A stretch of 64,000 nucleotides of DNA, taken from Malikia sp. (GTDB lineage Bacteria > Pseudomonadota > Gammaproteobacteria > Burkholderiales > Burkholderiaceae_C). The stretch lies in contig NZ_JAQTZS010000010.1 in assembly GCF_028687635.1 (NCBI RefSeq), positions 1 through 64,000 on the forward strand, in the 5' to 3' direction. Of the stretch, positions 25,084-29,047 are shown piece by piece (the stretch's first letter is position 1; each line of letters starts with the position of its first letter). The notes under the pieces were generated by a model that had not been told where the DNA came from, searched no databases, and worked only from the letters and a program-made list of their open reading frames with translations. The translations under genes were made by a program, and so were the position numbers.

Positions 25084-26121
25084 ATGATCACCCTCCCGCG
25101 CCACCGCCCCTGGCAAAAAATCGCTTCCTCCGCCCTGCTCGCGGTCACCCTGCTCGGCAGCTCGCTGGCGACGGCGGCCGACAAGCCGCTGCGCATCGGC
25201 ACCCTGGTGCCGAAGAACTCGCTCTACCACCGGCAGCTGCTGGAGATCGGCGAAAGCTGGCGCGCGGCCCAGGGCGGCAACGCCAAATATCTGGTCTATC
25301 CCGACGGCAGCCAGGGCGGCGAGGCCGAGATGGCGCGCCGCATGCGCATCGGCCAGCTCCAGGGCGCCCTGCTGTCGGTGGTGGGCCTGCGCGAGATCGA
25401 ACCCTCGATCGCGGCGCTGCAGGTCATGCCGCTGCTGTTCAGGAACTGGGAGGAAGTGGACCATGTGCGCGAGAAGATGCGCCCGGCCATGGAGAAGAAG
25501 TTCCTGGACAAGGGCTTCGTCGTGCTGACCTGGGGCGACGCGGGCTGGGTCAGGTTCTTCTCGAAGGAAGCCGCCTTGCGCCCGGACGACTACCGCAAGA
25601 TGAAGTTCTTCGCCTGGGGCTCGGAGCCCGAACAGCAGTCCATCATGAAGAGCCTGGGCTACACCCCGGTGCCGCTAGAAACCACCGACATCCTGCCCGC
25701 GATCCAGACCGGCATGATCAGCGTGGTGCCTTCCACGCCCTACTTCGCGCTCGCCACCCAGATCTACACCAGCGCGCCGCACATGCTCGAAATCAACTGG
25801 GCGCCGATCGTCGGCGCGCTGGTGGTCACCCAGAAGGCCTGGGACGAGATGAACCCCGCCACCCAGCAAGCCCTGCGCGCCGCCAGCGAGAAGACCGGCG
25901 TCCAGATCCGCGCCAAGGCCAGGCAGGAAGTCGAGGAAGCGGTCGAGGCCATGAAGAAACGCGGCCTGACCGTGCACCGCCCCAACGCCGAGCAGATGAA
26001 GGAATGGACTGCGCTGGCCGAACAGCTCTACCCGCGCATTCGCGGCACCCTGGTGCCGGCCGAGACCTTCGATGAAGTCATGGTCCATCTGAAAGCCTAC
26101 CGCGCCGGCAAGGGCAAGTGA
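25084..26121 (+). CDS. TRAP transporter solute-binding protein, DctP family
   Basis: Periplasmic substrate receptor, 345 aa. The signal peptide SALLAVTLLGSSLATA is cut before ADKPLRIG. The body shows the DctP layout, with LRIGTLVPKNSLYHRQL at the start of lobe 1, YPDGSQGGEAEMARRMRIGQLQGAL in the core, and the region KMKFFAWGSEPEQQ, where the ligand-binding arginine of many family members appears replaced. Such a change may mean a ligand without the usual carboxylate salt bridge. The stop overlaps the GTG start of the permease gene. Confidence 0.9.
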   Translation: MITLPRHRPWQKIASSALLAVTLLGSSLATAADKPLRIGTLVPKNSLYHRQLLEIGESWRAAQGGNAKYLVYPDGSQGGEAEMARRMRIGQLQGALLSVVGLREIEPSIAALQVMPLLFRNWEEVDHVREKMRPAMEKKFLDKGFVVLTWGDAGWVRFFSKEAALRPDDYRKMKFFAWGSEPEQQSIMKSLGYTPVPLETTDILPAIQTGMISVVPSTPYFALATQIYTSAPHMLEINWAPIVGALVVTQKAWDEMNPATQQALRAASEKTGVQIRAKARQEVEEAVEAMKKRGLTVHRPNAEQMKEWTALAEQLYPRIRGTLVPAETFDEVMVHLKAYRAGKGK

Positions 26122-27971
26122 AAGTGAGCGCTGTGCTGACCGCTCACCTAAAGCGCCTCGAAAAGGCCGACGAGCTGCTGTCGTCGGTGGCGCTGGTGCT
26201 GATGGCGCTGATTCCGGCGATCGAGATCCTGCTGCGCCCGCTGATGGGACGCGGCATCGAGAACGCGCCAGTGCTGGTGCAGCACCTGGGCCTGGTGCTG
26301 GCCATGTTCGGCGCGCTGGCGGCCGAACGGCACGGACACCTGACGACGCTGGCCGGTGGCGCCCGCGCCGACGGCACGCGGCCGAACCCGCTGCTGCACG
26401 CCTTGGCCCACGCCGTGGCCGCGCTGGTCTGCGGCATGCTCGCGCTGGCCAGCTGGCGCCTGGTCGCCAGCGAGATGGAGGTCTCGCATGTCCTGGCCTA
26501 CGGCATGCCGCTGTGGTGGGTGCAAGCCAGCATGCCGCTGGGCTTTGCGCTGCTGGGCGTGAAGCTGGGCGCGCGCTGCCTGCCCATGCCCTGGGGCCGG
26601 CTGGCGGGCGGTCTGCTGTGCCCGCTGACCGGCCTGCTGCTGGCCTGGCAGTTCGACGGCGGCGCCCTGACGATCTGGCCGGGACTCCTGCTGCTGCTGG
26701 CCGCCTTGCTGGCCGGGGCCCCGATCTTCGCGGCCCTGGGCGGCCTGGCGCTGGCGCTGTTCTGGCAGGACGGCATGCCGCTGGCGTCGGTGGCGCTGTC
26801 GCATTACCAGATCACGGTCAACCCTTCGCTGCCCGCCCTGCCGCTGTTCACCCTGGCCGGCCTGGTGTTTGCCCGCACCGGCGCCGCGCAGCGCCTGGGC
26901 GACCTGTTCGTCGCCCTGTTCGGTCAGGGCGTGACCGGCACCGTGCTGGCGGCGGCCGTGCTGTGTTCCTGCTTCACGGCCTTCACCGGCGGCAGCGGCG
27001 TCACCATCCTGGCGCTCGGCGGCCTGCTGCTGCCGCTGCTCAAGCAGGCCGGCTACCCCGAGCGGCGTGGCATCGGCCTGGTGACCAGCGCCAGCGCCCT
27101 GGGCGTGCTGCTCGCGCCTTCGGTGCCGCTGATCATGTACGCGATCATCGCCCGGGTGCCGATCAACACCATGTTCCTGGCCGGCCTGCTGCCCGCCGCC
27201 GTGATGGTGAGCTTCCTGCTGATCTTCGGCGGCTACCTCAAGCGCGGCAAGGCCTCGGAGCCTGCCAGCCCGGCCAGCCGGATCAACCCCGCCGCAGCGC
27301 GCGACCGGCGCCTGATCCTGACGGCCGCCTGGAGCGCCAAGTGGGAAATCCTGGCGCCCTTCGTGGCGATCGGCTCGCTCGTCAGCGGCCTGGCCACGCC
27401 CACCGAAAGCGCCGCGCTGACCGCGCTCTACGCCGTGCTGACCCAGTCGCTGGCGCACCGGGAACTCTCCTGGCGCCTGCTGGGCCAGGCCTTGAGCGAA
27501 TCGGCCCAGATCATCGGCGGCGTGCTGCTGATCCTGGGCATGGCGCTCGGACTGACCAACTACCTGATCGATGCCGGCATCCCGGACGCCGCGATCGAGG
27601 CGGTGCAGGCGCTGATTCCGAACCAGTTCGTCTTCCTGCTGGCGCTGACGCTGTTCCTGCTACTGGCCGGCGCGCTGATGGAGATCTTCGCCGCCATCGT
27701 GGTGCTGGTGCCGCTGCTGCTGCCGGTGGCCTTGAGCTACGGCATCGATGCTGTGCACTTCGGCATCATCTTCCTGGCCGCGATGGAAATGGGCTTCCTC
27801 TGTCCGCCGGCGGGCATGAACATTTACTTCTCATCGGCCATGTTCGGCAAGCCGGTGCGCTATGTCGCGCTGGCCGTGCTGCCCGCCTTGCTGGCGATCT
27901 TCCTCGGCACCCTGGCGATTGCCTGGCTGCCCGTGCTGGCGACCGGCTTGCCCGGGCTGCTGCTGCCTTGA
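26118..27971 (+). CDS. Fused TRAP transporter permease (DctQ-DctM)
   Basis: Sodium- or proton-driven importer in one 617-aa chain. Residues about 1-165 form the small DctQ part (four membrane segments). The rest is a DctM domain with many membrane segments and family motifs such as GGSGVTILALGGLLLPLLKQAGYP, APSVPLIMYAI and TPTESAALTALYA. It starts with GTG overlapping the dctP stop by four bases, indicating translational coupling. Fused QM subunits are known in sialic acid TRAP systems, but nothing nearby points to a substrate. Confidence 0.93.
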   Translation: MKVSAVLTAHLKRLEKADELLSSVALVLMALIPAIEILLRPLMGRGIENAPVLVQHLGLVLAMFGALAAERHGHLTTLAGGARADGTRPNPLLHALAHAVAALVCGMLALASWRLVASEMEVSHVLAYGMPLWWVQASMPLGFALLGVKLGARCLPMPWGRLAGGLLCPLTGLLLAWQFDGGALTIWPGLLLLLAALLAGAPIFAALGGLALALFWQDGMPLASVALSHYQITVNPSLPALPLFTLAGLVFARTGAAQRLGDLFVALFGQGVTGTVLAAAVLCSCFTAFTGGSGVTILALGGLLLPLLKQAGYPERRGIGLVTSASALGVLLAPSVPLIMYAIIARVPINTMFLAGLLPAAVMVSFLLIFGGYLKRGKASEPASPASRINPAAARDRRLILTAAWSAKWEILAPFVAIGSLVSGLATPTESAALTALYAVLTQSLAHRELSWRLLGQALSESAQIIGGVLLILGMALGLTNYLIDAGIPDAAIEAVQALIPNQFVFLLALTLFLLLAGALMEIFAAIVVLVPLLLPVALSYGIDAVHFGIIFLAAMEMGFLCPPAGMNIYFSSAMFGKPVRYVALAVLPALLAIFLGTLAIAWLPVLATGLPGLLLP

Positions 27972-27982
27972 GGCTGGTCGCG

Positions 27983-28011
27983 CTTGCAAAACTGCGCTAT
28001 AACCCCCATCT
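27983..28011 (+). promoter_or_regulatory. Sigma-32-like heat-shock promoter of rpoH
   Basis: CTTGCAA (27983-27989), 14-bp spacer, CCCCATCT (28004-28011). This closely follows the RpoH promoter consensus (CTTGAAA, 13-15 bp, CCCCATNT). It lies about 90 bp before rpoH and 25 bp before the CIRCE operator, so rpoH would be transcribed by its own product. Confidence 0.7.
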
Positions 28012-28036
28012 GCCTTGCGGGATCGGAACTTTCCTC

Positions 28037-28063
28037 TTAGCACTCGATCCAACAGAGTGCTAA
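28037..28063 (+). promoter_or_regulatory. CIRCE operator (HrcA binding site)
   Basis: Perfect match to the CIRCE inverted repeat: TTAGCACTC, nine bases, GAGTGCTAA. HrcA represses heat-shock genes through this site. It lies between the sigma-32-like promoter and the rpoH start. Confidence 0.92.
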
Positions 28064-28102
28064 CATTCGAGCATCCCCACAAGGGAAGGAGGAAGCCAAG
28101 AC

Positions 28103-29047
28103 ATGACCGCCATCGCCACCACCCACGCCCTGGCCCAACCCGCAAGCAGCTGGGGCAAGAGTTCCCTGACCATGCCGCCGCTGGGCAATCTGGACGCGTA
28201 CATCAGCGCGGTCAACCGGCTTCCCTTGCTCTCGGCCGACGAGGAACGCGACTACGCCCGCCGTCTGCAAAAAGACAACGACCTCGAAGCCGCCGGCAAG
28301 CTGGTGATGTCGCACCTGCGCCTGGTGGTCTCTGTCTCGCGCCAATACCTGGGCTATGGCCTGCCACACGGTGACCTGATCCAGGAAGGCAACGTCGGCC
28401 TCATGAAGGCGGTCAAGCGCTACGACCCCGAGCAAGGCGTGCGCCTGGTCAGCTATGCGCTGCACTGGATCAAGGCCGAGATCCACGAATACATCCTGAA
28501 GAACTGGCGCATGGTCAAGGTCGCCACGACCAAGGCCCAGCGCAAGCTGTTCTTCAACCTGCGCTCGATGAAGCAGGGCTTCAAGGCCGATGCCGCCGAG
28601 GCCGACACCCACCGCGAACGCCTGAGCGAGCACGAGATCGACCTCGTCGCGCAGGAACTCAAGGTCAAGCGCGAGGAAGTCATCGAGATGGAGACCCGGA
28701 TGTCGGGCGGCGACGTGCTGCTCGACCCCAGCCCGGGCGATGACGGCGAGGATGCCTACGGCCCGATCGCCTGGCTGGCCGATGCCCGCCACGAGCCGAC
28801 CGCGGTGATCGAGGCGACCCAGCGCGACCTGCTGGCCAGCGAGGGCATCAGCGAGGCGCTGGAAGCGCTCGACCCGCGCTCGCGCCGCATCGTCGCCGAG
28901 CGCTGGCTCAAGGTCAACGACGACGGCTCGGGCGGCATGACGCTGCACGAACTGGCGGCCGAATACGGCGTCAGCGCCGAGCGCATCCGCCAGATCGAGG
29001 TCGCCGCGATGAAGAAGATGCGCAAGGCACTCGAAGCCTACGCCTGA
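28103..29047 (+). CDS. rpoH: Heat-shock sigma factor RpoH (sigma-32)
   Basis: Directs RNA polymerase to heat-shock promoters. The 314-aa protein has sigma region 1.2/2 (YISAVNRLPLLSADEER; HLRLVVSVSRQYLGYGLPHGDLIQEG), region 2.4 (LVSYALHWIKAEIHEYIL), the RpoH box QRKLFFNLR that separates RpoH from other sigmas, and region 4 (LHELAAEYGVSAERIRQIE). GGAAGGAGG lies 5' of the start. The upstream region holds a sigma-32-like promoter and a CIRCE element, implying positive self-control plus HrcA repression. Confidence 0.97.
   Translation: MTAIATTHALAQPASSWGKSSLTMPPLGNLDAYISAVNRLPLLSADEERDYARRLQKDNDLEAAGKLVMSHLRLVVSVSRQYLGYGLPHGDLIQEGNVGLMKAVKRYDPEQGVRLVSYALHWIKAEIHEYILKNWRMVKVATTKAQRKLFFNLRSMKQGFKADAAEADTHRERLSEHEIDLVAQELKVKREEVIEMETRMSGGDVLLDPSPGDDGEDAYGPIAWLADARHEPTAVIEATQRDLLASEGISEALEALDPRSRRIVAERWLKVNDDGSGGMTLHELAAEYGVSAERIRQIEVAAMKKMRKALEAYA

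Follow-up and report, generated by a model that had tools for sequence, protein, structure and literature searches.

Which signals and which promoters control the gene for the heat-shock sigma factor RpoH in bacteria that keep the repressor HrcA? RpoH is a master regulator, and the textbook account of its control was drawn from E. coli, which to our knowledge has neither HrcA nor a CIRCE. The question was raised by the rpoH locus of a Malikia sp. genome (3.2 Mb in 50 contigs), lying in a window of 64,000 nucleotides, by which we mean the whole stretch of contig NZ_JAQTZS010000010.1 that was analyzed. A sequence-only reading of this window had placed rpoH behind a sigma-32 promoter recognized by its own product and a perfect CIRCE, and had read the arrangement as positive feedback by RpoH with HrcA as the brake. 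We investigated these elements in the genome itself and in the rpoH upstream regions of its relatives.

The rpoH gene and its predicted HrcA operator

The rpoH gene was found on the forward strand at 28103–29047 and encodes a protein of 314 aa (NCBIfam TIGR02392, 390 bits against a cut-off of 323; PRK06596, 403 bits). A Shine-Dalgarno sequence, AAGGAGG (28086–28092, forward strand), was read from the sequence, with the ATG 10 bases further on. Named relatives of the encoded RpoH came from Hydrogenophaga, Diaphorobacter, Curvibacter, Comamonas, Variovorax, and other Comamonadaceae and near kin. The same genome contained hrcA (TIGR00331, 307 bits) and rpoE (TIGR02939, 246 bits), both above the curated cut-offs. 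Upstream of rpoH, positions 26118–27971 encode a TRAP transporter protein of 617 aa, of which the C-terminal two thirds match the large permease DctM and the N-terminal 200 residues resemble a fused small permease.

The CIRCE, a predicted HrcA operator, occupies 28037–28063 (forward strand) and is an exact 9-9-9 inverted repeat, TTAGCACTC-N9-GAGTGCTAA, for which the expected number of chance matches is 0 even when 3 mismatches are allowed. The sequence-only reading had described it as perfect and as lying 25 bp after a sigma-32-like site; both the exact match and the distance were confirmed, and the elements ahead of rpoH are real and correctly placed. The genome contained exactly two CIRCEs, one before rpoH and one before groES. 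The hrcA gene (L032, contig C22) carries no CIRCE, and HrcA therefore does not seem to regulate itself. CIRCEs were present in 59 of 61 close and order-level genomes, mostly as two per genome. Allowing up to 3 mismatches, a CIRCE preceded rpoH at 71 of 72 loci in the same family, 78 of 80 loci from named Comamonadaceae and related bacteria, 87 of 100 loci in the order, and 59 of 69 other loci in the class, where sampling favored genomes whose RpoH was closest. In two cases without a match (L115 and L332), the available upstream DNA was simply too short. The rpoH CIRCE is near-universal in Burkholderiales and common among the other Gammaproteobacteria sampled; its frequency at rpoH in family, order, and class means that it is no peculiarity of the window genome.

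The presence of hrcA was compared with the presence of the rpoH CIRCE, genome by genome. In the order, 89 genomes contained both, three contained hrcA only, one contained the CIRCE only, and 10 contained neither (Fisher p about 1e-10); the corresponding counts in the rest of the class were 55, two, four, and eight (p about 2e-6), with both p values ignoring relatedness. Genome G233, which carries a broken 29-bit hrcA remnant, was scored as lacking hrcA. Four of the five cases of a CIRCE without hrcA were assemblies of 62–84% completeness, and the fifth (G135) had a degraded site. Losses in the order were spread over six families, and families f4 and f147 have other members that retain both hrcA and the CIRCE. 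Three genomes of the order (G045, G175, and G221) had hrcA yet a degraded CIRCE. That the CIRCE vanishes along with hrcA is the pattern expected of an HrcA operator, and it strongly supports the prediction that the rpoH CIRCE is one. The brake by HrcA that the sequence-only reading had proposed is likewise strongly supported, by conservation together with this co-loss. In two genomes of genus g173 (loci L182 and L186), hrcA was kept, the right arm of the rpoH CIRCE was degraded (TCTGCTAA), and the sigma-E elements described below were intact.

Predicted promoters overlapping the operator

Aligning the rpoH upstream regions on the CIRCE identified the motif GGAACTT, which corresponds to the −35 element of a sigma-E (RpoE, ECF02) type promoter and is located at 28025–28031 (forward strand) in the window. 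Its start peaked 12 bases before the CIRCE (−12) in the window's family, where about half of the sequences match the motif weakly, and lay 16 or 17 bases before it (−16/−17) in other Burkholderiales and other Gammaproteobacteria. A −10 element of the form TCNNA follows 16 bases past the −35. In the window this is TCCAA (28048–28052, forward strand), within the 9-bp spacer of the CIRCE. In the family as a whole TCCAA occupies CIRCE positions 11–15 (0-based), and elsewhere the element is TCTCA or TCTAA at positions 7–11 (0-based), on the border between left arm and spacer. Outside the family both elements were about 4 bp further upstream with their separation unchanged, so that the register of the −10 moves with that of the −35. 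Among 131 sequences that had a good −35 match at −12 or −16, TCNNA was in the matching register in 119, compared with 78 in the best of 10,000 permutations, a test that overstates independence because the registers largely follow clades. Exceptions within clades were few: three loci in or near the family (L242, L296, and L360) had the other register in both elements. The exact pattern GGAACTT-N15-17-TCNAA occurred three times in the genome. GGAACTT is the most widely conserved putative promoter element in the control region of the window's rpoH, and the gene appears to have a conserved sigma-E type promoter that is interlocked with the predicted HrcA operator.

The arms of the CIRCE also contain hexamers that resemble a sigma-70 promoter. 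TTAGCA in the left arm (28037–28042, forward strand) is a candidate −35, and TAACAT (28061–28066, forward strand), which overlaps the right arm, is a candidate −10; they are separated by 18 bp, set against a criterion of 17 ± 1 bp between hexamers. TAANAT covered CIRCE positions 24–29 at 231 of 285 rpoH sites vs. 1 of 34 groES sites. At position 2 of the left arm, A was replaced by G in 46 of 146 order and class sites, giving TTGGCA, which is nearer to the sigma-70 −35 TTGACA. Its palindromic partner, T24, hardly varied at rpoH, and this asymmetry was absent at groES. By composition alone, these patterns suggest a sigma-70 promoter with an 18-bp spacer whose hexamers come from the arms of the CIRCE, a claim that is weaker than that for the sigma-E promoter.

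Genomes that have lost hrcA were also informative. In G183, G062, and G137 the palindrome had decayed, and GGAACTT or GAACTT was kept together with TCNNA at the right distance. TAAAAT was kept in G183 and G137, in the latter now at 17 bases from a TTGGCA. Several other genomes lacking hrcA had no recognizable sigma-E site in the region searched upstream of rpoH, so retention of the sigma-E elements is not universal. In the three genomes named, the overlapping functions predicted for operator and promoter separate after the loss of hrcA.

The sigma-32-like site and alternative readings

The promoter that the sequence-only reading had singled out is located further upstream, at 27983–28011 (forward strand). 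Its sequence, CTTGCAA-N14-CCCCATCT, agrees with the sigma-32 consensus CTTGAAA-N11-14-CCCCATNT with one departure in the −35. Such sites are rare by chance: 0.02 occurrences of CTTGNAA-N11-15-CCCCAT are expected per 64 kb, and a stricter sigma-32 pattern occurred only twice in the 3.2 Mb genome and not at all in a reversed control. The −35, CTTGCAA, was invariant across five congeners, of which G000 and G002 had the exact −10 CCCCATCT; the other three had CCCAATCT or CCCAACCT in the same frame (one or two changes). Because G000 and G002 have diverged in the DNA separating the two elements, the conservation of the elements themselves is meaningful. Outside the genus, a site within one mismatch was found in only 4 of 280 rpoH upstream regions (0.3 expected from shuffles), and the site was dropped as a conserved promoter on this count. 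It is plausibly a locally evolved, genus-level addition, neither the ancestral nor the main promoter. Sporadic sigma-32-like sites before rpoH at three loci of other genomes (L259, L279, and L294) may represent independent gains of self-activation.

The rarity of this site and the invariance of its −35 despite the diverged spacer in G002 would fit an account in which it is the main promoter, RpoH activates its own gene, and HrcA at the CIRCE acts as a roadblock downstream. The groES gene of this genome has a similar layout, with CTTGAAA-N13-CCCTTAT directly before its CIRCE. We nevertheless judge this account unlikely, given that the −10 is altered in three of the five congeners, that the site is missing from nearly all other rpoH upstream regions while the CIRCE is near-universal, and that the conserved sigma-E promoter sits between the site and rpoH. 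The sequence-only reading was therefore half right. Its HrcA brake stands; the main conserved promoter appears to be a different one that overlaps the operator and whose GGAACTT it left unmentioned. Positive feedback by RpoH is possible only at the level of the genus, where CTTGCAA is shared but the −10 is eroded in three of five members; elsewhere such sites are sporadic. The comparison across Burkholderiales that it had called for bore out the CIRCE, and the promoter conserved with it is of the sigma-E type, not the sigma-32 type.

Two further alternatives concern the CIRCE and its neighboring motifs. GGAACTT and the spacer motif hold a fixed position relative to the CIRCE, as would be expected if they extended the recognition site of HrcA or served another protein instead of forming a sigma-E promoter. 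Against this, the elements are absent from the groES CIRCEs of the same genomes, where 34 sites showed no GGAACTT peak and differed in spacer composition, and an extended CIRCE was dropped as a candidate for lack of the motif at groES. In addition, both elements shift jointly by 4 bp while staying 16 bp apart, they persist in some genomes without hrcA, and they fit the sigma-E type consensus that Bordetella SigE uses at rpoH (PMC3490749). We consider a protein-recognition role improbable. The CIRCE could also work mainly in RNA, either as a hairpin in the 5′ leader that sets rpoH stability or through translation, by pairing of UUUCCUC with the Shine-Dalgarno sequence. In the predicted leader fold the CIRCE hairpin does form, and the upstream UUUCCUC (28029–28037) pairs with the Shine-Dalgarno region (28086–28095). 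However, the fold was no better than that of shuffled sequence (z −0.95) and no Rfam family matched the leader, and an RNA thermometer or leader structure was dropped on both grounds. Beyond the genus the pairing partner UUUCCUC is not kept, RNA begun at the sigma-E or sigma-70 start would lack an intact CIRCE hairpin, and the joint loss of CIRCE and hrcA points to a protein operator, not an RNA element, all of which leaves a role in RNA with very little probability. UUUCCUC would be available to the Shine-Dalgarno sequence only in long transcripts from the sigma-32 start, and would be missing from those made from the overlapping promoters.

Proposed control of rpoH and comparison with known systems

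The reading that we favor, and hold to be likely, is that HrcA occludes the conserved sigma-E promoter of rpoH, along with the probable sigma-70 promoter, and that the sigma-32 promoter is a genus-level addition. The elements, their conservation and register, the co-loss of CIRCE and hrcA, and the occurrence of both hrcA and rpoE in this genome are shown here, whereas we infer that HrcA binds, that the promoters are used, and how large the effects are and in which direction they run. HrcA is a repressor that needs GroEL to stay active. When bound to the CIRCE, it would keep RNA polymerase off the sigma-E promoter and the probable sigma-70 promoter that overlap the operator. Under heat, unfolded cytoplasmic protein would titrate GroEL, HrcA would leave the CIRCE, and transcription of rpoH would follow. 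It would increase further when envelope stress frees sigma-E. In this genus the upstream sigma-32-like promoter may add self-activation, and the CIRCE, located in the early transcribed region of that promoter, could act as a roadblock.

A broader reading, toward which we lean with less assurance, is that the HrcA operator and the rpoH sigma-E promoter share bases across Burkholderiales and many other Gammaproteobacteria, with the −10 placed in the supposedly free spacer of the operator. In the Comamonadaceae lineage the whole promoter would have shifted by 4 bp with its internal spacing kept. The rpoH gene would then integrate cytoplasmic (HrcA/GroEL) and envelope (sigma-E) stress at one conserved gate, and control of the E. 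coli type would be what remained after the loss of HrcA. Both in this Comamonadaceae bacterium and in the majority of the sampled beta- and related gammaproteobacteria, the two stress signals probably meet at rpoH in a single short segment of DNA. If the layout works as read, a large share of beta- and gammaproteobacteria would combine the sensing of GroEL by a repressor with envelope stress in one overlapping site. Such a layout would also explain why the CIRCE spacer is non-random at rpoH, and the hrcA losses would provide a natural series for studying the origin of the E. coli mode.

The sequence-only reading had contrasted this locus with that of E. coli. The contrast holds for the HrcA input, and it does not extend to the sigma-E input, which is shared, as E. 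coli rpoH carries the sigma-E promoter P3. In Bordetella bronchiseptica, SigE transcribes fam, the homologue of rpoH, in vitro from a sigma-E-like promoter that directly precedes it (PMC3490749). E. coli rpoHP3 and fam resemble the window in having a GGAACTT-type −35 and a TCNNA-type −10 before rpoH and an RpoE-type sigma factor; excerpts of the Bordetella study make no mention of a CIRCE (PMC3490749). A review describes a heat-inducible promoter of rpoH in B. pseudomallei that is under RpoE regulation (PMC5994319). For Geobacter sulfurreducens, Rodionov et al. (2004, PMC545781) predicted HrcA/CIRCE control of rpoH. The CIRCE there is exact, as in the window genome, and lies 51 bases before rpoH, with another before groESL; Geobacter also has a CIRCE at hrcA-grpE-dnaK-dnaJ, which the window genome does not, and sections of that paper do not describe an overlap with a sigma-E type promoter (PMC545781).

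A literature search for rpoH with a CIRCE and sigma-E together found no relevant paper. Permina and Gelfand in 2003 reportedly covered the HrcA and sigma-32 regulons of beta-, gamma-, and epsilon-proteobacteria and may already list the rpoH CIRCE; novelty is therefore claimed only for the overlap and the register shift. The groES gene of this genome resembles rpoH in having an exact CIRCE close to a heat-shock promoter, and differs in that the CIRCE follows a sigma-32 promoter and is without GGAACTT, the spacer TCNNA, or TAANAT. At the groES locus (L001, contig C11, 1472–1527), the exact CIRCE follows the sigma-32 elements at once, a layout unlike that of rpoH.
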